Below, in pieces: positions 40,167 through 54,702 of a DNA stretch of 54,702 nucleotides. Below the pieces are notes generated by a model, which worked only from the letters and a program-made list of their open reading frames with translations, was not told the origin of the DNA and did no database searches. The translations under genes and the position numbers were made by a program. How positions within the stretch are numbered: the stretch's first letter is position 1; each line of letters starts with the position of its first letter. The stretch is taken from positions 1-54,702 of the forward strand of contig CALWID010000018.1 of the NCBI GenBank assembly GCA_944380635.1, in the 5' to 3' direction. Source of the stretch: an uncultured Eubacterium sp. GTDB taxonomy: Bacteria; Bacillota; Clostridia; Oscillospirales; Acutalibacteraceae.

Positions 40167-40404
40167 CGCTTATATAGCCTGAAAATAAATTTCGCAGAAC
40201 ATTCGCATAAACGAAAATGTATTTAAAATTATAAATTATACAATAAAAAGTATACTGCAATTTAACATATATTTCAATATTTTTTTAAATTTATAATTTT
40301 ATAAGTGGGATTTTCATTATAAAATTAAACTGGTTTTTGATGATTTTAGTCAAATTCCGGCATCAACAATCAGGCGTTAATTTTTATACAACAAGGAGAT
40401 GGTG

Positions 40405-41475
40405 ATGGATATGCCAAAACGCGGCAAATACATTTACAAACAAAATGCCGGCGGGAGAGAAACAAGATATTTGAAAAAAGTTATCTGCACAAAGAAAAGA
40501 AAACGCCGTTGCGTCTATACAAATAATTACAAAGGAGTTAAAGAAAAGCGGCAGAGTAAATTATTGACGCCGAATAAAGAGAATTTAACGGTTGGCGATT
40601 TTTCCGCACAATGGCTTTACGGTATTAAAAACTGCGTAAAGCCGAACACATATCAGAAATATGAAAGTATTTGCAAAAATCATATTATTGATTATATGGG
40701 TTCTTTAAAATTTAAGCAGGTTACAAAAAATACAACTATTAATTTTACTAATAATTTAAAAGAAAAAAGTCTTTCGGCAAAAAGCATAAACGATATTTTG
40801 ATTGTGCTACATTTGATTTTAAAAAACGCGCATGAGGAATATCAGATTCCGATTCCGAACATTCGATATATAAGGGAGGAAGAAAAAAGCCCGCGTGTAC
40901 TTTCTGCGTATGAGCAACAGCAATTAACAAATTATTTAAAAAATAATGTTGATATATATAAATTTGGAATACTGTTATCTTTATATACGGGTATACGGAT
41001 TGGCGAACTTTGCGCACTTAAATGGGAGGACATAACGGATGATTATATTAAAATTGATAAAACTATGGCAAGGATAAAATCCGAAAACGGCAAAACAGAA
41101 GTAAAAATAGGTGCGCCTAAAAGCAAAAATTCCAAACGGCTGATACCCACCCCGCAGAGCTTATTGCTGTTGATAAACCGATTTAAAGGCGAAGGGTATG
41201 TATTATCAACGGAAAAATCGGATTATACGGAGCCGCGTTTAATGCAAATTAAATTTAAAAAGATTATTTCAGAATGTGGATTGGAAAAAACTAATTTTCA
41301 TGCTTTAAGGCATACATTTGCAACGCGCTGTGTGGAGGCAGAAGTTGATATTAAGTCTTTATCTGAAATACTGGGTCATTCCGATGTTAAAATAACGCTT
41401 AATAAATATGTTCACTCTTCTTTTGAACTCAAACAGAAAAGCATGAAAAAATTTGAATTGTCCTTAATATCTTAA
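40405..41475 (+). CDS. Tyrosine recombinase (integrase)
   Basis: Site-specific recombinase of the phage/ICE integrase family. A basic N-terminal arm-binding region is followed by a SAM-like core-binding domain (~55-150: LTVGDFSAQWLYG) and a catalytic domain. Catalytic residues are visible: YTGIRIGELCALKW (Arg), HALRHTFATR (His-x-x-Arg), LGHSDVKITLNKYVH (His and nucleophile Tyr). ATG at 40405 (MDMPKRG) lies 6 nt after AAGGAG; ATG at 40399 abuts it. It marks the left side of the accessory region. 356 aa, apparently intact. Confidence 0.92.
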   Translation: MDMPKRGKYIYKQNAGGRETRYLKKVICTKKRKRRCVYTNNYKGVKEKRQSKLLTPNKENLTVGDFSAQWLYGIKNCVKPNTYQKYESICKNHIIDYMGSLKFKQVTKNTTINFTNNLKEKSLSAKSINDILIVLHLILKNAHEEYQIPIPNIRYIREEEKSPRVLSAYEQQQLTNYLKNNVDIYKFGILLSLYTGIRIGELCALKWEDITDDYIKIDKTMARIKSENGKTEVKIGAPKSKNSKRLIPTPQSLLLLINRFKGEGYVLSTEKSDYTEPRLMQIKFKKIISECGLEKTNFHALRHTFATRCVEAEVDIKSLSEILGHSDVKITLNKYVHSSFELKQKSMKKFELSLIS

Positions 41476-45122: not shown

Positions 45123-46400
45123 ATGAGCACATTTGAGAAGGTAATCGGTTATGATTCAATTAAAAACGAACTTATGCAAATCTGTGATATGGTGCACAAT
45201 AAGGAGCGTTATGAGGCTCTTGGTGCAAGAATGCCCAACGGTGTTTTACTTCACGGTGCTCCTGGTATAGGCAAAACTCTAATGGCAAAATGCTTTATTG
45301 AGGAATGTAAAATTAATACATATACTTTAAGGAGCAACAAGGGTACAGACAAATTTGTTGATGAGATAACAGAGGTGTTTGAAAAAGCAAAGAAAAATTC
45401 TCCGTCAATAATTTTTCTTGATGATATGGACAAGTTTGCGAATGACGATGAAGCCCATAGAGACGCAAAGGAATATGTTGCCGTTCAGGCGGGAATTGAC
45501 AGTGTTAAAGAATGTGATGTGTTTGTAATTGCAACTACAAACGATATTTGCAAGCTGCCGCCGTCTTTAACTCGTTCAGGAAGATTTGACAGAGTTATTT
45601 ATATGCGCCCTCCCACAAAAACTGATGCAATAGAAATCATCAGGCATTATTTAGAAAATAAAAAACTATCTAATAGTGTTAACTTTGACGATTTATGCAA
45701 AATGATGTCATATCACTCTTGCGCTGATCTTGAAACAATAATTAACGAGGCGGCAATTCGTGCGGGGTTCAGACAAAAAAACAGCATAGAAATGGAGGAC
45801 TTAATCGCAGCAGTGCTGCGGCTGCAATATAATTCTCCCGATGATTTAATGCAAAAAGAAAAAGACGAAATCCGCAAGGTGGCGTTTCACGAAGCGGGAC
45901 ATCTTGTAGTAAGTGAGGTTATTATGCCGGGATGTATCGGACTTGCTTCTATTCGTACAAGAGGCAGAAGCAATACAGGCGGATTTATTCACAAATGTAA
46001 AGAATTAGAAAGAAGACCTCATAATATTATGGTGGCACTGGGGGGAAAGGTTGCCACGGAACTATATTATTCAGAAGCGTGTGCAAGCGGATGCTATTCC
46101 GATTTAGATAGAGCAGTAACGCTTATTCGTGATGGATTAACAGAAAGCGGCACAAACGGAGTTTCCTTTTTAGAATTCGGTGAATCTTTTTATAATTTGT
46201 CTGACAGAACTTTTGATAACAGAGAGGCGGTAGTTCATGCAGAACTTGAGCGATACATATTCCAAACGAGAAATATTCTGCTGCAAAACAAAGAATTCCT
46301 TGAAAAAGTTGCCGATGCTCTTGTAGAAAAAGAAACACTGCTCTTTTCCGATATTAAAGCAATTCGGGAGAGTGTTACTATAACAAAATGTGTAGAATAA
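45123..46400 (+). CDS. Soluble FtsH-like AAA+ zinc metalloprotease
   Basis: AAA+ unfoldase fused to an M41 peptidase, as in FtsH, but without N-terminal TM helices or a periplasmic domain. Walker A GAPGIGKT at 45-52, Walker B SIIFLDDMD, sensor ATTND, Arg fingers in TRSGRFDR. The zinc site HEAGH is at 256-260, and the third-ligand region is CYSDLDRA. 425 aa, versus ~600-650 for FtsH. The core is compact and the protease segment short. AAAGGAG precedes the ATG. Substrates unknown; its island location suggests an accessory rather than housekeeping role. Confidence 0.85.
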   Translation: MSTFEKVIGYDSIKNELMQICDMVHNKERYEALGARMPNGVLLHGAPGIGKTLMAKCFIEECKINTYTLRSNKGTDKFVDEITEVFEKAKKNSPSIIFLDDMDKFANDDEAHRDAKEYVAVQAGIDSVKECDVFVIATTNDICKLPPSLTRSGRFDRVIYMRPPTKTDAIEIIRHYLENKKLSNSVNFDDLCKMMSYHSCADLETIINEAAIRAGFRQKNSIEMEDLIAAVLRLQYNSPDDLMQKEKDEIRKVAFHEAGHLVVSEVIMPGCIGLASIRTRGRSNTGGFIHKCKELERRPHNIMVALGGKVATELYYSEACASGCYSDLDRAVTLIRDGLTESGTNGVSFLEFGESFYNLSDRTFDNREAVVHAELERYIFQTRNILLQNKEFLEKVADALVEKETLLFSDIKAIRESVTITKCVE

Positions 46401-46510
46401 TGTAAGATTTTGCTTAAAGAACACATTCCGAACTTAATTTTCTAATCCTTTATTAATAAAAGACGACTGGTTTCTCAATAATGAGATACCAATCGGCTTT
46501 TATTTTTCTG

Positions 46511-46858
46511 TTACGCCTCCATTGCAAATCCTGCTGTGCTCATATAGTTGTCGATTTTTTGTATATTCTCCGTTTGGAAGTTTTCAAACACATCGGAATA
46601 AGTATCAAGAGTAATACTTATATCCGTATGCCCCAGCAGGTCTTGAAGAACTTTTACAGGCATTCCGCCCTCAATACAACGAGTAGCGTATGTATGACGC
46701 AGACTGTGAAGTGTAAGCTTGCCTTTTACAGTTTCGTCCTTAATATTATACTTTTTCAAAACTCTGTGAAATTCCATATTAACCTGATTCGCTGACATCA
46801 ACTGACCTTTTCGAGTCAACCCGGTCATAAACACTCCGATGCGTTTTAGTTTATACAA
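46511..46858 (-). pseudogene. Truncated tyrosine recombinase (C-terminal fragment)
   Basis: Contains [10 protein letters not shown] and [17 protein letters not shown], the second half of an integrase catalytic domain with His-x-x-Arg, His and Tyr. The N-terminal arm, core-binding domain and first catalytic Arg are missing. Upstream DNA (46859 on) carries no continuation in any frame. It is a relic of an integrated element, distinct in sequence from the intact integrase at 40.4 kb. Confidence 0.85.
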
Positions 46859-47711
46859 ACTAAATTTTTGTATTTTTTGTGGTATATAATAAAGGTTTTA
46901 TTAAACTGGACTTAAAAACTCCTTTGTGGTATAAGTGTGTACTGCAAAGGAATTGATTTTTATCAATACTGCATGTGTTATGGTATGGAAATATAAAGTC
47001 TTGTGAGGACAACCATATGAAAGCAATAAAAATATTGCTGATTTTCAGCGTAAACACTCTCCTTTAGGAGTGTCCCAAGCATAGCGCATGGGGCGCATTT
47101 TTTCGGTTCTTTTCCCGAAAAGTGGTTGCCTAAAGGCAAAACTAATTTAGAAAGGATTGAAAGAAACTAATTTGAACGATAAATTTACACTTAATGCGAC
47201 ATCATTACCAAAAGGGTTAAAAATTTAGGCGTGGTAATTCAGGAGGTTTACATATGGATAATGAAAATAAAAATGATGAGTTTGAATATCTCTAATAATA
47301 AGATTATCGCGGGCAGGGGAACCCCTTTTGCTATGCTTTGATATGTACTGATAATTATATAACATCATAGCACATACCTCCAATAATTTATCCCAGCCCG
47401 ACCATTTAGTGCGCTTACTAAATCATTTCATTATAATAGAAAAAGCCTGTTGTCAAGAGATTGTATCTTTGTGAGAGTTTGTATTAATACATAGACAAAC
47501 CTTTGAAGCCCCGGCGCAGGCGGACAACTGGTTTGAAATACTTCAATAAAATTCAATTAATAAGCGAGCAGTATGTATTCTGTTTATCTAAATTATAAAA
47601 CTTCTAATATTTGGCCTATTTCTGTTGCTGTTGTATTCTATTCCGATAATGACCCATATTTATTGATTTTAAAAGGTCATTTTCAAGTTTATACTTCAAA
47701 TTTCTCACAGA
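46859..47711. other. Gap with probable mobile-element remnants
   Basis: A hairpin ACACTCCT..AGGAGTGT lies at about 47050-47071. A good ribosome-binding site (AGGAGG) stands before ATG 47254, but the frame stops after 13 codons. On minus, GGAGG before a short ORF of 47 codons ends in the same area. These look like beginnings of genes cut by deletion. Nothing here can be named. An AT-rich stretch with no gene fills 47460-47711. Confidence 0.35.
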
Positions 47712-47942
47712 TTATATACCTGTATTATCATACAAAATGTCAAATATAGTTTCCCATTTGTATGCTGACGGTAACGGCTCGCCCCTCTTATCAAAACAAG
47801 CTACCTGATAATAATCTGTTATTTCATCATATAAATCTGCTAATTCATCAATAGAGTAATCTTTTTCATTATCTAAGTATATATTTATACTTTCAAGCAG
47901 GCTTAATTGCTCTTCATTATATAAATTCCTGATATTTTTCAT
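47712..47942 (-). CDS. Small acidic hypothetical protein
   Basis: 76 residues, starting MKNIRNLYNEEQLSLLESIN. It is mostly predicted helix, acidic (many Asp/Glu), with DELADLYDEITDYYQVACFD in the middle. AAGGAG lies 6 nt before the ATG, supporting expression. It is encoded 56 bp downstream of mcrC on the same strand, so it may belong to the McrBC operon. No family recognised; an anti-restriction or regulatory role would be speculation. Confidence 0.55.
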   Translation of the reverse strand: MKNIRNLYNEEQLSLLESINIYLDNEKDYSIDELADLYDEITDYYQVACFDKRGEPLPSAYKWETIFDILYDNTGI

Positions 47943-47998
47943 TATTTCTCCTTATTTTGTCTTTTGTTTTCAAGTATAAAAATTCATCAATAATAACA

Positions 47999-49357
47999 TT
48001 AAAAGCCGTTATATCTTTTTTCCATTTCTTTAACAATAGATTCCAGTTTTCCCAAAAAATCTGCATTTACAATATTTTTAGGATTATTATCCTTATTTAT
48101 ATAAGGTCCGTCAACTAAAAAACGGCAGGTTGAATCGTTTTCAAATAATAAAGAATCGGTTTTCACATCTTTGTTCTCAGATTCAACTGGATACAGCAGC
48201 CCTGAAACCAAAACATGACCACGGCTTTGCATGTAAGATATATATGTGTGAATCTGAAAAAAGTCTTCTCTGTCAACATCAATGCCCCTGTAATTCATTG
48301 TTTTATATTTTGCATCAAAAACGCAAAAATTACCGTCTTTTTCTAAAACAATATCAGGAATAATTTTCCTTTTGTAGAACATTTTATCGTAAACAGTAAA
48401 TGTTGAATTTATTAACTTCCAACCGCTTAAACTAAGCCTTTTCTCTATGATACTTCTTAAATAACATTCCCAAACTTCTGCCATATCAATCAAAAATCCG
48501 GAAACATTTAAGCTGCTGGTTTTGATTTGAGTTCCTGTTTTTAATTTTATTATCTGCCAGGAAAAATCCACAAGATCTTTATAGGCTTGATAAATCGGAT
48601 GGTAAGAGATAGACTGGTAGTCTTTTTCGGTCACATTTGTTTTATCAAAACTATGAGCGATATTTTCTATATTTCGAATAGCATCTGTTGAATTTCTTGG
48701 TAAAATTTTAGAAAAGTCATCAAATGCATAGTCATTCTTTAATATTTTATATGCCTTGTTAATTATAGCAATAATAGTTTTGTCATAAGTCTGTTCAAAA
48801 CTTTTTGAAATTATAGTTTTGTTTTTGTTATAAGAAAAAACAGACGGTCTTACTAAAAGTTGACCTTTTACTTCATAACCTCGACTAATCTTTGATTCCT
48901 TTTTTCTTGGTAATCCGTGCCTTATAGCTGATGAAAGTTTTTGCTGCCAAATATAGCAAATCAAAATTTTTATATAAAATGATGATGAACCGCCGAACTC
49001 TGAACATCCTTGGGTGAATTTCAAATTGAAAATTTCCGCAAACATATCCATCAATATTTCTCTTCCAAATCTTGGAGAGATGGAAAGATAATATTTTGAT
49101 TTACCGTTTTGCCACTCGACATCACCAATATAACGGCCGGCTTTCCACTCCCTGCTATAATAGTCAAAATATACAACCGGTTCTGATTCTTTTTCTTTAT
49201 TGCTTTTATCAAAGGTAAAACAACTGACACTCTCGGATGAATTCATAATATTCATTAAAAATTCATCGTTAGGATCCGTCAATATTTCTTCTTTTTCATT
49301 AGATATTTTTGAACAGTCGGATGCCGTATATTTAATACTGCTTTTATTCTTGCCCAT
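47999..49357 (-). CDS. mcrC: McrC-like restriction nuclease subunit
   Basis: Nuclease partner of McrB in a type IV (modified-cytosine) restriction system. An N-terminal beta-rich region with YYLSISPRFG is typical of McrC. The C-terminal PD-(D/E)XK site is visible as IPDIVLEKDGNFCVFDAKYK, with Asp, Asp and Lys in place. 452 aa from ATG 49357. A TTG at 49381 is an alternative start; either way the gene overlaps mcrB, so translation is coupled. Confidence 0.82.
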   Translation of the reverse strand: MGKNKSSIKYTASDCSKISNEKEEILTDPNDEFLMNIMNSSESVSCFTFDKSNKEKESEPVVYFDYYSREWKAGRYIGDVEWQNGKSKYYLSISPRFGREILMDMFAEIFNLKFTQGCSEFGGSSSFYIKILICYIWQQKLSSAIRHGLPRKKESKISRGYEVKGQLLVRPSVFSYNKNKTIISKSFEQTYDKTIIAIINKAYKILKNDYAFDDFSKILPRNSTDAIRNIENIAHSFDKTNVTEKDYQSISYHPIYQAYKDLVDFSWQIIKLKTGTQIKTSSLNVSGFLIDMAEVWECYLRSIIEKRLSLSGWKLINSTFTVYDKMFYKRKIIPDIVLEKDGNFCVFDAKYKTMNYRGIDVDREDFFQIHTYISYMQSRGHVLVSGLLYPVESENKDVKTDSLLFENDSTCRFLVDGPYINKDNNPKNIVNADFLGKLESIVKEMEKRYNGF

Positions 49358-51089
49358 TATATATTTTTTCCAATTCCCCAATTATTTCTTTTTTTCTTTG
49401 TGTATCAATATTGTCAAGATAAGCCTCAAGCATTGGGAGAATAGATATTTTCCAAAGAACCTGTAATGCTCCGTTTGGCATAGCTGGTTTCTTATTTGAA
49501 CGCTTGTATAAATTTTTATCGCTAAATTGTGGACTCAAATCATTTATTTCTGCAAAGAAAACATGTCCGATTTCATATTGCTCGCCCAATTCCTGTGTGT
49601 TTTTAATTTTATCATTAAGTTTTACAACTCTAGAGATAAATTCTTCTTTATCTTCTTCCTTTTTAATAATTTCATCGGATACCATATTCCTTAAAGTATC
49701 AGCATCAAAGTTATGTTTAAACCAAAGGAATCGTCTTCTCAAAGCAAAATCAAGACGCTCTAAAGAAAAATCAATTTCGTTCATTGTTCCTATAATATAC
49801 AGGTTTTTAGGAACACAAAGACACAACGGATTGCCGTCGTTATCTTTGTATGGCAAATCAATTTTTTCGCCCCTGTTTTCAATTCCCGAAAATGCTTCGC
49901 CAAATAATCTTGCCAAATCAACACGGTTAATTTCATCCAAAATAAGGATATACGGATTTTCAATGTCTTTTCCAGCTTTTTCACAAAGTTCAAAGAAATC
50001 GCCTTTAACAGTTTTTATGTTACCGTTTAATATTGTCTGTCCTACAATAAACTGCTCATAACTATAATTAGAATGTAGTTGCAACCTGTGTACATATTCG
50101 TCCAAAGCTGCACCATCTTTAAGATATTCCTGAATCTTCAAACTGCCATTTTTAATTTTAGAAAGTGCAACAAATGATTTTGCTAAATGCATTGCTGCAT
50201 ATGTCTTACTTGTTCCCGGAGGGCCGTAAAGGATAATATTTTTCTTGAATTGCAGTGCCTGAAACTCATCATAATCACCGCTTTGAGAACTAAAATCCCA
50301 TAATAAACGCAATCTCTTTGTTTCATAATAATCAAAATTTTTGTCAATAACCTTTTCAGATAATTTATCCCTAATTTCAAGTAATTTGTCATCAAGTATG
50401 TTATTTTTATCAACATCTATAAATTCCGAAAAACATTCTGCTATTCTTTTCTTGTGATCATACGAAACTATTCTTTCGTATTTTTCAGGATTTGATAAAT
50501 ACAATAATATTTCCGTCATGGGACGCTTTCCAGAGTCTTTTTCTACAACACTATAATTTTTATAATCATCATAACATTCTTCCTCTTCCTTATATTTATA
50601 ACAACGGCAGATGTCTTCAATTTTTTTACATATAAAATTATAATCTGGCTTTTTTTCACACTCTTCACAAATATCAATTAATGCTGAAAATAACAGTAAA
50701 ACAAAACATATTTCATCGTATTTACTTGTTAGATGCCTTTGTCCGCCATTTGCAAAACCTTGTTTCAATCTTGGGACGGATTCAACTTCAGTAAAAATCA
50801 AATCGCAGTTTTTAGTTTCATTAACTGAAAAACCCCATAACCATATAGCGTGTGAAAATACAATCTTTGCTCCCTGTGATGCATTTTCAAACTGTTTTTT
50901 CGCCTTTACATCAAACTTTTCGTTACTTTCTTTGGGATTATTAATAAAACATTCTATACATTCTTCTACATTTTGTTTAGTAAAGACTTCTTCATCTGAA
51001 TCTTCCAAATAATTTTTTTTATCAATTATAAAATTATTTATAAAGCTCTCATACATCTCATAGATTTTTTCATCGCATTGTCTGTACAT
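49344..51089 (-). CDS. mcrB: McrB-like AAA+ GTPase restriction subunit
   Basis: NTP-driven translocase of McrBC. Residues ~1-280 are a non-conserved N-terminal region, presumably the DNA-modification reader, with no recognised domain. The AAA+ core has Walker A ILYGPPGTSKT (286-296), Walker B ILILDEINRVDLARLFGEAF, and IGTMNEIDFSLERLDFALRRRF. The last of these corresponds to the McrB MNTAD signature and sensor/arginine region, with E-I replacing T-A. 581 aa. Directly overlaps mcrC. Confidence 0.85.
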   Translation of the reverse strand: MYRQCDEKIYEMYESFINNFIIDKKNYLEDSDEEVFTKQNVEECIECFINNPKESNEKFDVKAKKQFENASQGAKIVFSHAIWLWGFSVNETKNCDLIFTEVESVPRLKQGFANGGQRHLTSKYDEICFVLLLFSALIDICEECEKKPDYNFICKKIEDICRCYKYKEEEECYDDYKNYSVVEKDSGKRPMTEILLYLSNPEKYERIVSYDHKKRIAECFSEFIDVDKNNILDDKLLEIRDKLSEKVIDKNFDYYETKRLRLLWDFSSQSGDYDEFQALQFKKNIILYGPPGTSKTYAAMHLAKSFVALSKIKNGSLKIQEYLKDGAALDEYVHRLQLHSNYSYEQFIVGQTILNGNIKTVKGDFFELCEKAGKDIENPYILILDEINRVDLARLFGEAFSGIENRGEKIDLPYKDNDGNPLCLCVPKNLYIIGTMNEIDFSLERLDFALRRRFLWFKHNFDADTLRNMVSDEIIKKEEDKEEFISRVVKLNDKIKNTQELGEQYEIGHVFFAEINDLSPQFSDKNLYKRSNKKPAMPNGALQVLWKISILPMLEAYLDNIDTQRKKEIIGELEKIYNGQE

Positions 51090-51938
51090 AATTTATCCTC
51101 CGTAATTAAAACATCAAATCAGTTACAGCCATTTTATTTTATAAGCCTTTCTCAAAATTCTAAATATAGTTGTAATCTTTTTTGTATCTTAAGATCACAA
51201 CAAAATTATATAATTTAATTATATATTACAGTAAAATAAATATCAATTGTATTAATTAATTTACTTTATATACCAACCTGTATATTTTATAAATCTATCA
51301 TTAGTTACAGCAACAAACAGGTAAAATAATCTTCAGCATTTATAAAAATATAGATTAAATCAACTTTTCATTTCAATTACCATGATCAGGAGATTAACTA
51401 TTTTTTTCTATTGTACTTATTATGTCAGTAAATTATTCTTAAGTCCTGTACAATTTATTCATACTGCAGCGGAAACAGCAGGCACAGGCTTGCTGTAATT
51501 CAAACACGTGACTGACAATTCGCATGATTTTGTTTGTTTCCATTAGACGTATACACAGGCGAAAGGCGTGGATAAATAAAATTGTATGCGTGACGGATTG
51601 CCTCCATTCCTCTATTTTTCTAATATCTTCTTTACCTTTTTAATTAAGATAAAATTAAACTTGAATTTTGGCCTGCTTAATTTTCTAAATGTATATTAAT
51701 CTGAACGCGTGTTGTTTAAAAATATCATTATTGTTTAATTATATACGATTTATATATAAATTACTTGTTTGTCCGCGATTTTGACTCGATTTTATAAGAT
51801 TACATATTAAAAATCTATTTTTACTTAATTTAATGCTTTGAGTTTTGTTAAATATATTAACTCTTTAATATAATTTTAAATTAAAATTATATTGTTTAAA
51901 TAAATCTAATATGGTAAAATTTTGAGTAAGGTGATTTT
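51090..51938. other. AT-rich gap between mcrB and tcmP
   Basis: The divergent region of mcrB and tcmP. Very AT-rich except for a small GC-richer patch at about 51480-51600, which holds a 35-codon minus-strand frame without known similarity. It must contain promoters for both directions; none is clear enough to call. Low GC suggests recent transfer. Confidence 0.4.
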
Positions 51939-53048
51939 ATGAAAAATAATTTTGATAAAGCGAAACCTCATTCAATAAAAAAATTCGAAATGATAAAAAA
52001 TTATACTGATGCTTGGGCAAGAAAAATTTTAGGATATGAAAAATCCACAGGCATTGTTTTTATTGATTGCATGTCAAATTGTGGATTCTATTATGATGAA
52101 AAAAAGTCGAAAATTATTGAAGGCACGGCTATTAAAGTTGCAAAAACTCTTGACAAACTATCAGAAAATTATCCTAATAAATCAATAGATGTTTATTTTA
52201 ACGATTTTGAAAAGTGGAAAATAGATTATCTTAAATCAGAAATTCAAACAAATAATCTTACACACATTAATTTTCATTATTCTGTTGAAGACAGCAGTTC
52301 TTTTTTAAAATCTATGCACCCTCATAAATTCTTAAATAAAAATATACTTCTAATTTATGATCCGTTTAAGGCAACCATTGACTGGAAGGCATTAAAGCCA
52401 TTTTTAAATGCTTGGTGTGATGTTATAATCAATCATATGGTACACGACACAACAAGAGGTGCAAAAACAGCCACAAAGGAAGATGTAATTAAACGATATG
52501 AAAAAACATACCAAATGTCTATTGACAGTATAAAAAAGCTTAGCGATAATCGTGACGCTTTAGATGAAAGAATACGAAATATAATTAAGAAAATTGTATC
52601 ACAAAATCAAAGAGAGCATTTCATTGCTTCTTTTCCATTCTATAACAGGAACAACGGATTGGTTTATAATTTATTATTATGTACTGGTAATATTGAGGGA
52701 ATGAAATTATACAAGAAAGTTGCATGGAAAAATTTTGGGAACAGATCATCAGATAAAAAAACACACGGCCTTGAAACACAACTACAATTTTCTATTGAAG
52801 ATGGATCAATTACAACAAATACAGATGAGCATTGCTATAATATTACTGATATCGCAAAATACATATATAAAAAGTATTCAAAAAAAGGGAAAATTTCACT
52901 GGAACAATTATATCACGATCTTGACAGGCATCCAATATTTCCTACAGACGGCTATAAAAGTGAAATAAAAAAAGAATTAAAAAGTTTATATAATGTAAGT
53001 TTTATAAAAGAAAATGGAAAACAAATTCTTGTGTTTAGGAGAGATTAA
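51939..53048 (+). CDS. tcmP: Three-Cys-motif partner protein TcmP
   Basis: TcmP family protein always found with a three-Cys-motif (Gp37/Gp68, DUF5131) protein; role unknown. The N-terminal half has a methyltransferase-like Rossmann pattern: IVFIDCMSNCGFYYD (39-53; usual form FIDxFAGPG), EGTA, VYFNDFEKWKIDYL (acidic residue at the end of a strand) and ILLIYDPFKATIDW. The C-terminus resembles a winged helix. The motif-I Gly-rich loop is altered (CMSNCG), so SAM binding is uncertain. 369 aa; weak RBS (AAGGTGA). Next gene starts 1 bp after its stop. Confidence 0.8.
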   Translation: MKNNFDKAKPHSIKKFEMIKNYTDAWARKILGYEKSTGIVFIDCMSNCGFYYDEKKSKIIEGTAIKVAKTLDKLSENYPNKSIDVYFNDFEKWKIDYLKSEIQTNNLTHINFHYSVEDSSSFLKSMHPHKFLNKNILLIYDPFKATIDWKALKPFLNAWCDVIINHMVHDTTRGAKTATKEDVIKRYEKTYQMSIDSIKKLSDNRDALDERIRNIIKKIVSQNQREHFIASFPFYNRNNGLVYNLLLCTGNIEGMKLYKKVAWKNFGNRSSDKKTHGLETQLQFSIEDGSITTNTDEHCYNITDIAKYIYKKYSKKGKISLEQLYHDLDRHPIFPTDGYKSEIKKELKSLYNVSFIKENGKQILVFRRD

Positions 53049-53049
53049 A

Positions 53050-53757
53050 ATGTCAACAAGTAAAATTGAGTGGACCGAGATAACTTGGAATCCTATAACT
53101 GGGTGCACCAAAACATCTGACGGGTGCTTGAATTGTTACGCGGATAGATTTGCTAAAAGATTAAAAGCAATGGGGAATAAAAGATATAAAAATGGTTTTG
53201 AGGTAACCATTCATGAAGATCTGATTGAAGAACCTAAAAAGTGGAAGACTCCAAAAAAAGTATTCGTTAATTCTATGTCAGATATATTTCATGAAAAGGT
53301 ACCAGATGATATAATATTGTCTATTTTTAAAACAATGAATGAATGTCCTCAGCATCAATTTCAGATTTTAACAAAAAGGCCCGAAAGGCTTAAATCCTTA
53401 AATAAAAAAATTAAATGGACCAAAAATATATGGCTGGGTGTAACTATTGAAAATGATAAATATTTGTATAGAGGCGATATTCTTAAAAATACAAGCGCCT
53501 ATATTAAATTTATCTCAGCTGAGCCATTAATTGGAAGTTTGAAAGACATTAACTTAGATGGCATTGATTGGTTGATTGTTGGAGGAGAATCTGGACCACA
53601 TTGCAGACCCATTGAAAAAAAATGGGTAGAAGAACTTCTTGAACTAGCTCAGAAAAGTAATGTAGCTTTTTTCTTTAAACAATGGGGAGGCGTTAACAAA
53701 AAGAAAAACGGGAAGGCTCTAAATGGTAAAATAATACAAGAATACCCAATTAAATGA
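53050..53757 (+). CDS. Three-Cys-motif protein (phage Gp37/Gp68, DUF5131 family)
   Basis: TEITWNPITGCTKTSDGC, then LNCYADRFAKRL, puts cysteines at 19, 26 and 29 (CX6CX2C), the three-Cys motif thought to hold an iron-sulfur cluster in a radical-SAM-like barrel. KKVFVNSMSDIFHE, QFQILTKRPERL, IWLGVTIEN, KFISAEPLIG, WLIVGGESGPHCRP and FFFKQWGG are all family hallmarks and near complete. 235 aa from ATG 53050 (GGAGAG upstream). It is translationally coupled to tcmP. Activity unknown; relatives occur in phages and mobile elements. Confidence 0.88.
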   Translation: MSTSKIEWTEITWNPITGCTKTSDGCLNCYADRFAKRLKAMGNKRYKNGFEVTIHEDLIEEPKKWKTPKKVFVNSMSDIFHEKVPDDIILSIFKTMNECPQHQFQILTKRPERLKSLNKKIKWTKNIWLGVTIENDKYLYRGDILKNTSAYIKFISAEPLIGSLKDINLDGIDWLIVGGESGPHCRPIEKKWVEELLELAQKSNVAFFFKQWGGVNKKKNGKALNGKIIQEYPIK

Positions 53758-53912
53758 ACAATAATGTTTAACAATAAATTTATATAAGTTTTATTATTTA
53801 TCAAAAGAACAAACTATATGACATAATAAATTAATATAATAAATTTATAGTAGTAATCAAATGCAAAATGCTAACACAATACATGAATAATCCTTTTACT
53901 GTCTTTGTAAAT

Positions 53913-54264
53913 TTAAAATTTCATAACTTCGTCCTTGCTGATGTAACCTTTTAGGAAATCAGCAAGGAATTTTTTCTTTTTCTCAATAAAATCAATATAT
54001 TGGGGCTTGGTATATCGGTTCAGTTTTGTCCAATTATTTATCTTCTCTAGATAAAGCAGGCCCCGATTGATTACATCTTTATTAATGCTTCTTTTGTATT
54101 CAAAAATCACGGATAGTTATTTTATCAATTTCTAAATTATCCATCCGCCCATTGGTAATTCTGCATTCCGATTTAATAAATGTTACTCCGAAAAAAGTAT
54201 TCATATTCTCTACGATTAATTTTTGCAATTTTTTCAAGTGTAACTTATTTAGATGGGAATTCCT
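53913..54264 (-). pseudogene. Frameshifted PD-(D/E)XK nuclease relic
   Basis: Reading from 54264 down, one frame encodes LKKLQKLIVENMNTFFGV, then FIKSECRITNGRMDNLEID, ending in a stop near 54100. A second frame continues with VIFEYKRSINKDVINRGLLY and LEKINNW to 53913. Joined, they match the order of the NucS-like/DUF5655-associated nuclease core: helix-FG, SE..., RiDxLgiD, then the catalytic IEYKR and NVINQGLxYL. A frameshift splits the gene between ITIR and VIFEYK. The start is also lost, since stops precede 54264. After LEKINNW the C-terminus does not resemble the family. Confidence 0.65.
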
Positions 54265-54668
54265 TTATTTTTTTTATATCAAAAGTTTAATATCAGCTAT
54301 TTTATATTATCATATGATTTACAAAAAAATTACCATTAATAATTTAATTATCATATCACATTTGAGCGATTAATAAAATTTTATACTATAAACAATTTAA
54401 TGTTTTAGTAATATTATTATTTTAATAAATTAGGGTTTAGTTTATAATCTGTTAAATTCATTTTAAAATATAAAGAATTACCTTATTAAAGCAATTTTTA
54501 ATAATTAACTATTAACTCATATTTAAAATTAGTTTTATTAAAATCAATTTAAACACATGTTGCAATTTTCAATGTTTGCATTTGAAGGCTCAGAATTTTT
54601 AAAATATTGAAACAATAAATAAATTATGTTACCATAAATATATAATTAAATTATATGGAGATTACTTT

Positions 54669-54702
54669 ATGTTAGATGGAAAATTCATATTATTTGAAAT
54701 AA
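54669..54702 (+). CDS. Start of an unknown gene cut by window edge
   Basis: ATG after TATATGGAGATTACTTT, a good ribosome-binding site at suitable spacing. Only MLDGKFILFEI can be read. Product unknown. The stretch 54265-54668 is AT-rich, with nothing else recognised. Confidence 0.4.
   Translation, partial: MLDGKFILFEI

Follow-up and report, generated by a model that had tools for sequence, protein, structure and literature searches.

The window, a stretch of 54,702 bases that makes up one entire contig of an uncultured Eubacterium sp. (genome of 2.0 Mb in 47 contigs, with one TcmP), carries a TcmP gene directly followed by a gene for a three-cysteine protein of the DUF5131 (Gp37/Gp68) family, beside the genes of a McrBC-like restriction system. 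The locus raises the question of what the two proteins do together and whether they form a defence system of their own. An initial annotation had proposed an uncharacterised candidate; the defence guess is supported by the comparisons described here, yet it is already on record because PDC-M30 is listed in PADLOC-DB (models PDC-M30A and PDC-M30B), and papers list it as well. With regard to function, the pair is with moderate probability a mobile, restriction-associated cassette that modifies nucleobases. TcmP would then be a methyltransferase that depends on S-adenosylmethionine (SAM) and acts, in the manner of RlmJ, on adenine or on a base like it. The three cysteines of the DUF5131 protein would hold an iron-sulfur (Fe-S) cluster, and this protein would perform radical chemistry on the target of TcmP, like the enzymes of the spore photoproduct lyase (SPL) clan. 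The pair as a whole would be an accessory modifier in the service of restriction loci or of other loci directed against phages.

Both proteins exceed the cut-offs of their families: TcmP matches TIGR04474 with 82.8 bits (cut-off 53) and the DUF5131 protein matches PF07505 with 310.9 bits (cut-off 28.9). Judged from the models in PADLOC's library of hidden Markov models, TcmP matches PDC-M30A weakly (E 1.1e-9 and 1.3e-9, 36 bits), and the DUF5131 protein matches PDC-M30B at E 2e-110 and PDC-M41B slightly better at E 4.8e-113. The likeness to PDC-M30 consists of the match of both proteins and the adjacent position of their genes in the same direction. In contrast, the weak match of the window TcmP and its membership in a subfamily with the pattern CMxNxG, mostly paired with a CX3CX3C partner, set it apart. 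Going by these matches, the window pair is an intact copy of the candidate PDC-M30 and not an unlisted system; it is a variant of an already catalogued candidate, with a less common combination of partners.

The PDC entries of PADLOC are described, in the part of the source available, as candidates from 'guilt by embedding' that are mostly unvalidated (PMC12988326). Excerpts of other papers give PDC-M30 as predicted in 32 of 100 Pseudomonas aeruginosa strains, 68.8% of them resistant, which is a correlation only (PMC10855318), list it for PA14 (PMC11878078), show TcmP SMa2243 beside Hna SMa2245 in an expression table of Sinorhizobium meliloti (PMC12445080), and list TcmP in S. meliloti prophages (PMC12429752). 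SMa2243 and SMa2245 are taken as genomic neighbours from their locus tags. In the portions of the literature consulted, PDC-M30 is listed without a stated chemistry, and the relation to RlmJ, the exchange of partners, and the type III or GmrSD genes that stand near members of the window's clade were not found in the literature searched. The placement near RlmJ, the exchangeable partner, and the restriction neighbours turn 'function unknown' into specific residues that can be tested.

Both reading frames are open and intact. As the initial annotation had stated, the genes are coupled with a gap of a single nucleotide, between the stop codon of TcmP (53046-53048) and the ATG of DUF5131 (53050). 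The start of DUF5131 is placed at 53050 because AGGAGAG, a likely ribosome-binding site (Table 1), stands before that ATG and ends 6 bases 5' of it. A longer DUF5131 frame, from 53014, is likewise open but is disfavoured by this site and by the homologues, which point to 53050. The spacing between TcmP and DUF5131 was from -20 to +30 in 52 of the 65 pairs measured, among which a locus with TcmP in pieces can be counted twice, and -1 and +1 were the most frequent values; coupling is therefore a trait of the family.

The co-occurrence of the two genes was followed in the best 80 of at least 587 genome relatives of DUF5131, and the figures hold for close relatives. TcmP lies within 500 nucleotides (nt) of DUF5131 in 69 of these loci, a pairing that exceeds chance and agrees with the conserved partnership claimed at first, and at one locus (L060 and L197, the same place) the two are fused in one frame. 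In a sample of the phylum, TIGR04474 occurs in 33 and PF07505 in 76 of 398 genomes. The window kind of TcmP occurs in 4 of the 291 genomes of its class, including the window.

The TcmP profile was made from 56 sequences (the window and 55 of the 80 loci), and the RlmJ alignment comprised Escherichia coli RlmJ (NC_000913) and six relatives. When the TcmP profile was searched against the PDB, RlmJ ranked first at E 0.001, and direct comparison by hhalign gave E 1.3e-10 (97%, 110 columns), in keeping with the methyltransferase-like frame recognised earlier. TcmP is homologous to RlmJ from motif X to motif IV, with the catalytic lysine and aspartate and the serine/threonine and acidic cofactor residues aligned. 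The RlmJ study, as far as its available text goes, reports that Lys18 and Asp164 are required for activity, that Ser100 and Asp164 hold the amino-acid end of SAM, and that Glu118 holds the ribose (PMC3814359). These residues align with K15 (K in 53/56 rows, the remaining 3 being gapped), D141 (D in 56/56), T63 (S/T in 52/56), and D89 (D/E in 56/56) of TcmP, respectively; P142 is P in 49 rows and Q in 7. The window protein keeps K15, D43, G49, T63, D89, and D141-P142. In contrast to RlmJ, TcmP has a C-terminal region after the matched domain, an alignment gap at the stretch of the helical insert, and no match to Pfam PF04378 (E 0.1). From these columns TcmP is read here as a working SAM-dependent methyltransferase of the RlmJ type; its mode of action may be that of RlmJ, yet it is not classed as RlmJ, because the DPPY form of motif IV is absent.

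The motif-I loop of the window TcmP had been described as altered. The loop is real (D43-CMSNCG-49, with D43 and G49 kept), but it is not damage. The pattern CMxNxG occurs in 19 sequences, including the window, and the enclosing clade of 20 rows has a support of 100; both rule out a damaged motif I. As far as the alignment and the tree indicate, CMSNCG marks a conserved subfamily and is not a lesion.

The DUF5131 alignment contained the window and 49 of the 80 loci. Cys19, Cys26, and Cys29 (CX6CX2C, the motif first noted in the window) and Tyr30 are invariant in 50/50 sequences, and all 50 match rSAM_mob_pairA (TIGR04471) at E 0.001. The link to radical SAM enzymes is drawn because the substitutes of DUF5131 match Radical_SAM or SPL models. 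One substitute, named type B, lies downstream of some TcmP genes and has the motif GCxHGCxxPCYA (CX3CX3C). Type B proteins match Radical_SAM (E 0.01) in 8/8 cases and also match DUF5131 weakly, and comparison of type B with DUF5131 gave E 1.3e-6 (91% probability, 208 columns), with the cysteines in register save for their spacing. The canonical cluster motif of radical SAM enzymes is CX3CX2C, and this motif is present in a third kind of partner, which faces TcmP in L004 (the same place as L180), L007, and L019. Of three proteins of the third kind, two exceed the cut-off of the SPL model PF20903, and both of two tested match the SPL model TIGR04070 under its cut-off. These profile comparisons make DUF5131 a divergent relative of the SPL group of radical SAM enzymes, which agrees with the radical chemistry suggested initially. 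It differs from TIGR04471 and the SPL clan in the score of the window protein (79 bits against the TIGR04471 cut-off of 355), in its CX6CX2C motif, and in having TcmP as partner. Plain membership in SPL was rejected, as DUF5131 reaches only E 0.003 to SPL. Searches of the PDB with both window proteins singly and with the DUF5131 and CX3CX3C profiles found nothing beyond chance level.

In L343 (439-2265, plus strand), one frame of 609 amino acids (aa) contains an RRXRR/IscB-like part as well as a radical SAM part of type B. In L096 (9929-12375), DUF5131, with no TcmP found, stands directly before a putative Cas9 gene, a name that we presume from reading its N-terminal sequence.

The exchange of partners is visible on a tree of TcmP, which was built by a quick method with SH-aLRT support only, from the 170 of 202 rows that were left after removing identical ones, less one more dropped for length. 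The 169 rows carry the labels DUF5131 (A, 121 rows), CX3CX3C (B, 38 rows), or none (10 rows); the labels did not include the SPL-like third kind of partner. On the tree, label A changes at least 12 times and label B at least 10 times, as compared to means of 42 and 35 after shuffling, and branches with a support of at least 95 force 9 and 8 of such changes, respectively. TcmP and its partner travel jointly yet are often swapped, as parts sharing one job would be. Within the CMxNxG clade of 20 rows, the labels are B in 11, A in 3, and none in 6 rows, 5 of the latter being first members of tandem TcmP pairs with the radical partner two genes away. The window, L061, and L220 (the same place as L347) form a clade of their own with DUF5131, with a support of 100. 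In several members of the larger clade, a second TcmP (FAGTG kind) separates the CMxNxG TcmP from type B. L062 contains a DUF5131 protein that is 71% identical to that of the window, beside a TcmP of another kind, in pieces. Tandem TcmP genes of two kinds on the same strand, together with a type B gene, were also seen in L349 (8517-10644) and L303-L306.

With a putative RlmJ-type methyltransferase and a putative SPL-type radical enzyme, the anatomy of the pair fits a two-step modifier of nucleobases. The discovery of a new base would mean a modification of nucleic acid that is built by radical chemistry and tied to restriction.

The neighbourhood of TcmP was compared with control stretches. 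The neighbours (151 proteins from 20 genomes) were genes of at least 120 aa, up to 4 on either flank of TcmP, at loci drawn from the 33 TcmP genomes, mostly those with long contigs; the controls were eight genes from each of 20 stretches in 17 of those 20 genomes (160 proteins). In a PADLOC scan at E 1e-15, run in two halves, the neighbours match 61 and 227 models and the controls 5 (RtcR-CARF, mad3, E1-E2) and 52 models; many PADLOC models are redundant, so these are not gene numbers, and a broken gene (Mod in G144) may count repeatedly. Among the control matches listed, 25 of the 52 are Cas models, each from one protein. The neighbour matches listed, which come from the 25 commonest of the 61 and 227 families and are given without the matching protein, include Mokosh MkoA and MkoC (2 proteins each), mad2 (4), type I methyltransferase (up to 4), type I specificity (3), type III methyltransferase (3), and single ones including RmrA, PsyrA, and RTasNERD-Hel.

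Searches for the families McrC, N6_Mtase, Methylase_S, and GntR covered 30 of the 33 TcmP genomes (G080, G307, and G328 excluded), with expectations computed from rounded genome lengths and with short contigs ignored. Of 24 strong N6_Mtase loci (E <=1e-40), 3 are no more than 10 kb away from TcmP (G078, G171, and G315; 0.2 expected, P ~0.001), and Methylase_S matches adjoin each of the three. GntR, a weak control, gave 318 matches with 2.3 expected near TcmP and none near it among the matches listed. TcmP relatives lie near restriction or defence genes more often than expected.

The proximity to defence genes anticipated by the initial annotation is thus more than in control stretches, but McrBC is no fixed partner of the pair. 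McrC is present in 4 of the 30 TcmP genomes, two of which (the window and G009) have it less than 10 kb from TcmP. The expected number is 0.03 when the prompting window is included; without the window, 1 was observed and 0.02 expected (P 0.02). The McrC match in G009 is partial and that in G161 has stops. BLAST with the window McrB and McrC around the two nearest relatives, L061 and L347, found none, where distant ones could be missed, and McrBC was rejected as an obligatory partner. With respect to the other type IV system, a GmrSD_N gene directly follows type B in L310 and L313, lies ~5 kb further on in L317, and is ~3 kb from TcmP in G009; the search covered 15 records, 6 of which have a match anywhere. 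The likeness to type IV restriction lies in these neighbours and in the divergent McrBC of the window. The pair itself, in contrast, matches no nuclease or translocase family and is a neighbour of such systems, not a member.

Type III-like genes often accompany the pair in the window's own clade of TcmP. Nine of the 20 clade loci have, beside the pair and in the same orientation, Mod and/or Res genes, which we take to be such from DPPYNTG and DEAD-type motifs: G144 (Mod in pieces), G481, G571, L303-L306 (L306 with Mod alone, where the contig ends), L311, and L312. In G481, the CMxNxG TcmP is followed by the second TcmP, type B, Mod, and Res; in G571, the genes run Mod, Res, TcmP, and DUF5131. 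The same search found neither gene in the 20 control stretches. Among the 80 DUF5131 genome loci, 2 gave Mod and none gave Res, and among the 80 DUF5131 viral loci, 2 gave Mod and 1 gave Res. The PADLOC match of three neighbour proteins to MTase_III, given without the proteins that matched, fits the naming of Mod. As to the remaining clade members, G315 has type I genes and the window has McrBC, L317 and L318 have what we presume, by reading alone, to be DUF1156-like genes, reading of G199 and L061 recognised no restriction gene, and L221, L315, and L022 are too short for their neighbours to be judged.

The neighbours therefore point to DNA restriction, and the closest characterised relative of TcmP points to RNA. 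In an overlapping but less probable reading, the target of the pair would be tRNA or rRNA, and the modification would be an abortive response or a means to resist an attack of phages or nucleases on translation. This tentative alternative agrees with the fact that the nearest characterised TcmP relative found, RlmJ, is an rRNA enzyme, the adenine-N6 methyltransferase of m6A2030 in 23S rRNA. However, the catalytic site of RlmJ resembles that of N6-methyladenine (m6A) DNA methyltransferases in the available part of the report (PMC3814359), and the recurrent neighbours of the pair are DNA restriction genes.

Self-protection or repair is a somewhat weaker alternative and is considered unlikely. 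The pair would reverse base damage or remove an adduct caused by phage weapons or by neighbouring defence systems, as SPL reverses a thymine adduct, and TcmP would be a base-flipping sensor or a methyl donor. The lyase matches of the SPL-like third partners (PF20903 and TIGR04070) are in favour of such a role, and several different restriction systems adjoin the pair's relatives, as expected of a general guard. On the contrary, DUF5131 itself is weakly SPL-like, and TcmP has kept the catalytic columns of a methyltransferase, which would be unnecessary for a mere sensor.

The pair occurs in phages and on plasmids. In another, rather improbable, alternative, the pair would be anti-restriction cargo that modifies the DNA of its own mobile element or prophage and lets it escape restriction in a new host. 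The nearness to restriction genes would then be explained by shared hot spots of islands. In the Gordonia phage Jablanski, TcmP and DUF5131 face each other between the integrase and immunity repressor genes, and gene 43 matches TIGR04474. TcmP lies within 600 nt in 40 of the 80 viral loci with DUF5131, on contigs that may be misclassified, and in the three plasmids read, the pair is near integrase or transposase genes. All of these placements suit such cargo, whereas the pair of the window's clade often stands beside same-strand Mod/Res, where Mod would already mark self-DNA. For the viral contigs, the TcmP profile offered no stretch of sufficient conservation. In the phages phi3LM21 and PhiCh1, which have different hosts, DUF5131 was also seen a few genes from an ASCH annotation (written ACSH in phi3LM21). 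Very improbable is the proposal that TcmP with any of its three radical SAM partners would install a hypermodified base read by adjoining nucleases (type III Res, GmrSD, McrBC, type I), in its boldest form as a mark on invading nucleic acid that would license McrBC or GmrSD to destroy the marked molecule; if true, such modular marking would amount to one modifying head re-used with many cutting bodies.

Several observations weigh against the preferred reading of the pair as a restriction-associated modifier of nucleobases. Regarding the pairing, there is no TcmP within 500 nt in 11 of the best 80 genome loci and within 600 nt in the other 40 of the 80 viral loci, and phi3LM21 (L177) and PhiCh1 (L178) have a longer DUF5131 gene with no annotated TcmP near. 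Regarding the profiles, the alignments behind the hhalign comparisons are shallow (effective sequence number, Neff, of 2-3 where given). Regarding TcmP, most sequences have DP[FYW]G as motif IV and the window has DPFK, instead of the DPPY of RlmJ; TcmP may not be an N6-adenine methyltransferase because DPPY is replaced. Regarding DUF5131, the window protein has no match to Radical_SAM (PF04055), its cysteines form CX6CX2C and not CX3CX2C, and the profile match to SPL is weak (E 0.003, probability 10%). Regarding the neighbours, the Mod/Res search favours close relatives because its queries come from the window's clade, and G199 and L061 sit, by reading, among apparent housekeeping or cell-surface genes. 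Finally, a literature search on DUF5131/TIGR04474, on radical SAM and phage defence, and on the rSAM mobile pair found no published activity.

Table 1. Coordinates of the pair and of the adjoining features in the window
Feature	Position	Strand	Basis
TcmP, 369 aa, putative RlmJ-like class I methyltransferase type, CMxNxG subfamily	51939..53048	+	TIGR04474, PDC-M30A, hhalign, column audit
DUF5131 (Gp37/Gp68) three-Cys protein, 235 aa, divergent, radical-SAM-like	53050..53757	+	PF07505, TIGR04471, PDC-M30B/PDC-M41B
AAGGTGA, likely ribosome-binding site of TcmP	51928..51934	+	read from sequence
AGGAGAG within the 3' end of the TcmP gene, probable ribosome-binding site for DUF5131	53037..53043	+	read from sequence
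McrB-like AAA subunit, divergent from the pair	49344..51089	-	PF07728 51.5 bits; NF008457 117.1 bits (cut-off 637, not reached)
McrC-like subunit	47999..49381	-	PF10117 90.4 bits (cut-off 23.9)
Very AT-rich intergenic region between divergent mcrB and tcmP	51090..51938		G+C steps, sequence read, Rfam

The setting of the pair agrees with its first description as AT-rich, divergent from McrBC, and placed in an island with recombinases. Both Mcr genes are on the minus strand, and G+C is 24-29% over 51-54 kb, as compared to 30-49% in the remaining 1-kb steps. From 40 kb on, where ten proteins were scanned, a tyrosine integrase of 358 aa (40399-41475) and a fragment of 115 aa (46511-46858) were found. 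The fragment, on the minus strand beside McrBC, is the C-terminal part of a tyrosine recombinase. An Rfam scan of 46000-54702 found no family at threshold, and for want of a match the idea that the mcrB-tcmP intergenic region holds an RNA gene of a known kind was rejected. A perfect, AT-only inverted repeat of 20 nt (51208-51227 and 54637-54656) flanks the pair close to the contig end; it is probably a chance product of AT-rich DNA, and it could also be a boundary mark of an element. Further upstream (45123-46400, plus strand) lies a gene for a 425-aa protein with AAA and peptidase M41 domains, which is FtsH-like (217 bits, cut-off 600), also matches the models of the anti-phage protein IetA (best 4.7e-25), and adjoins a metallophosphoesterase gene.

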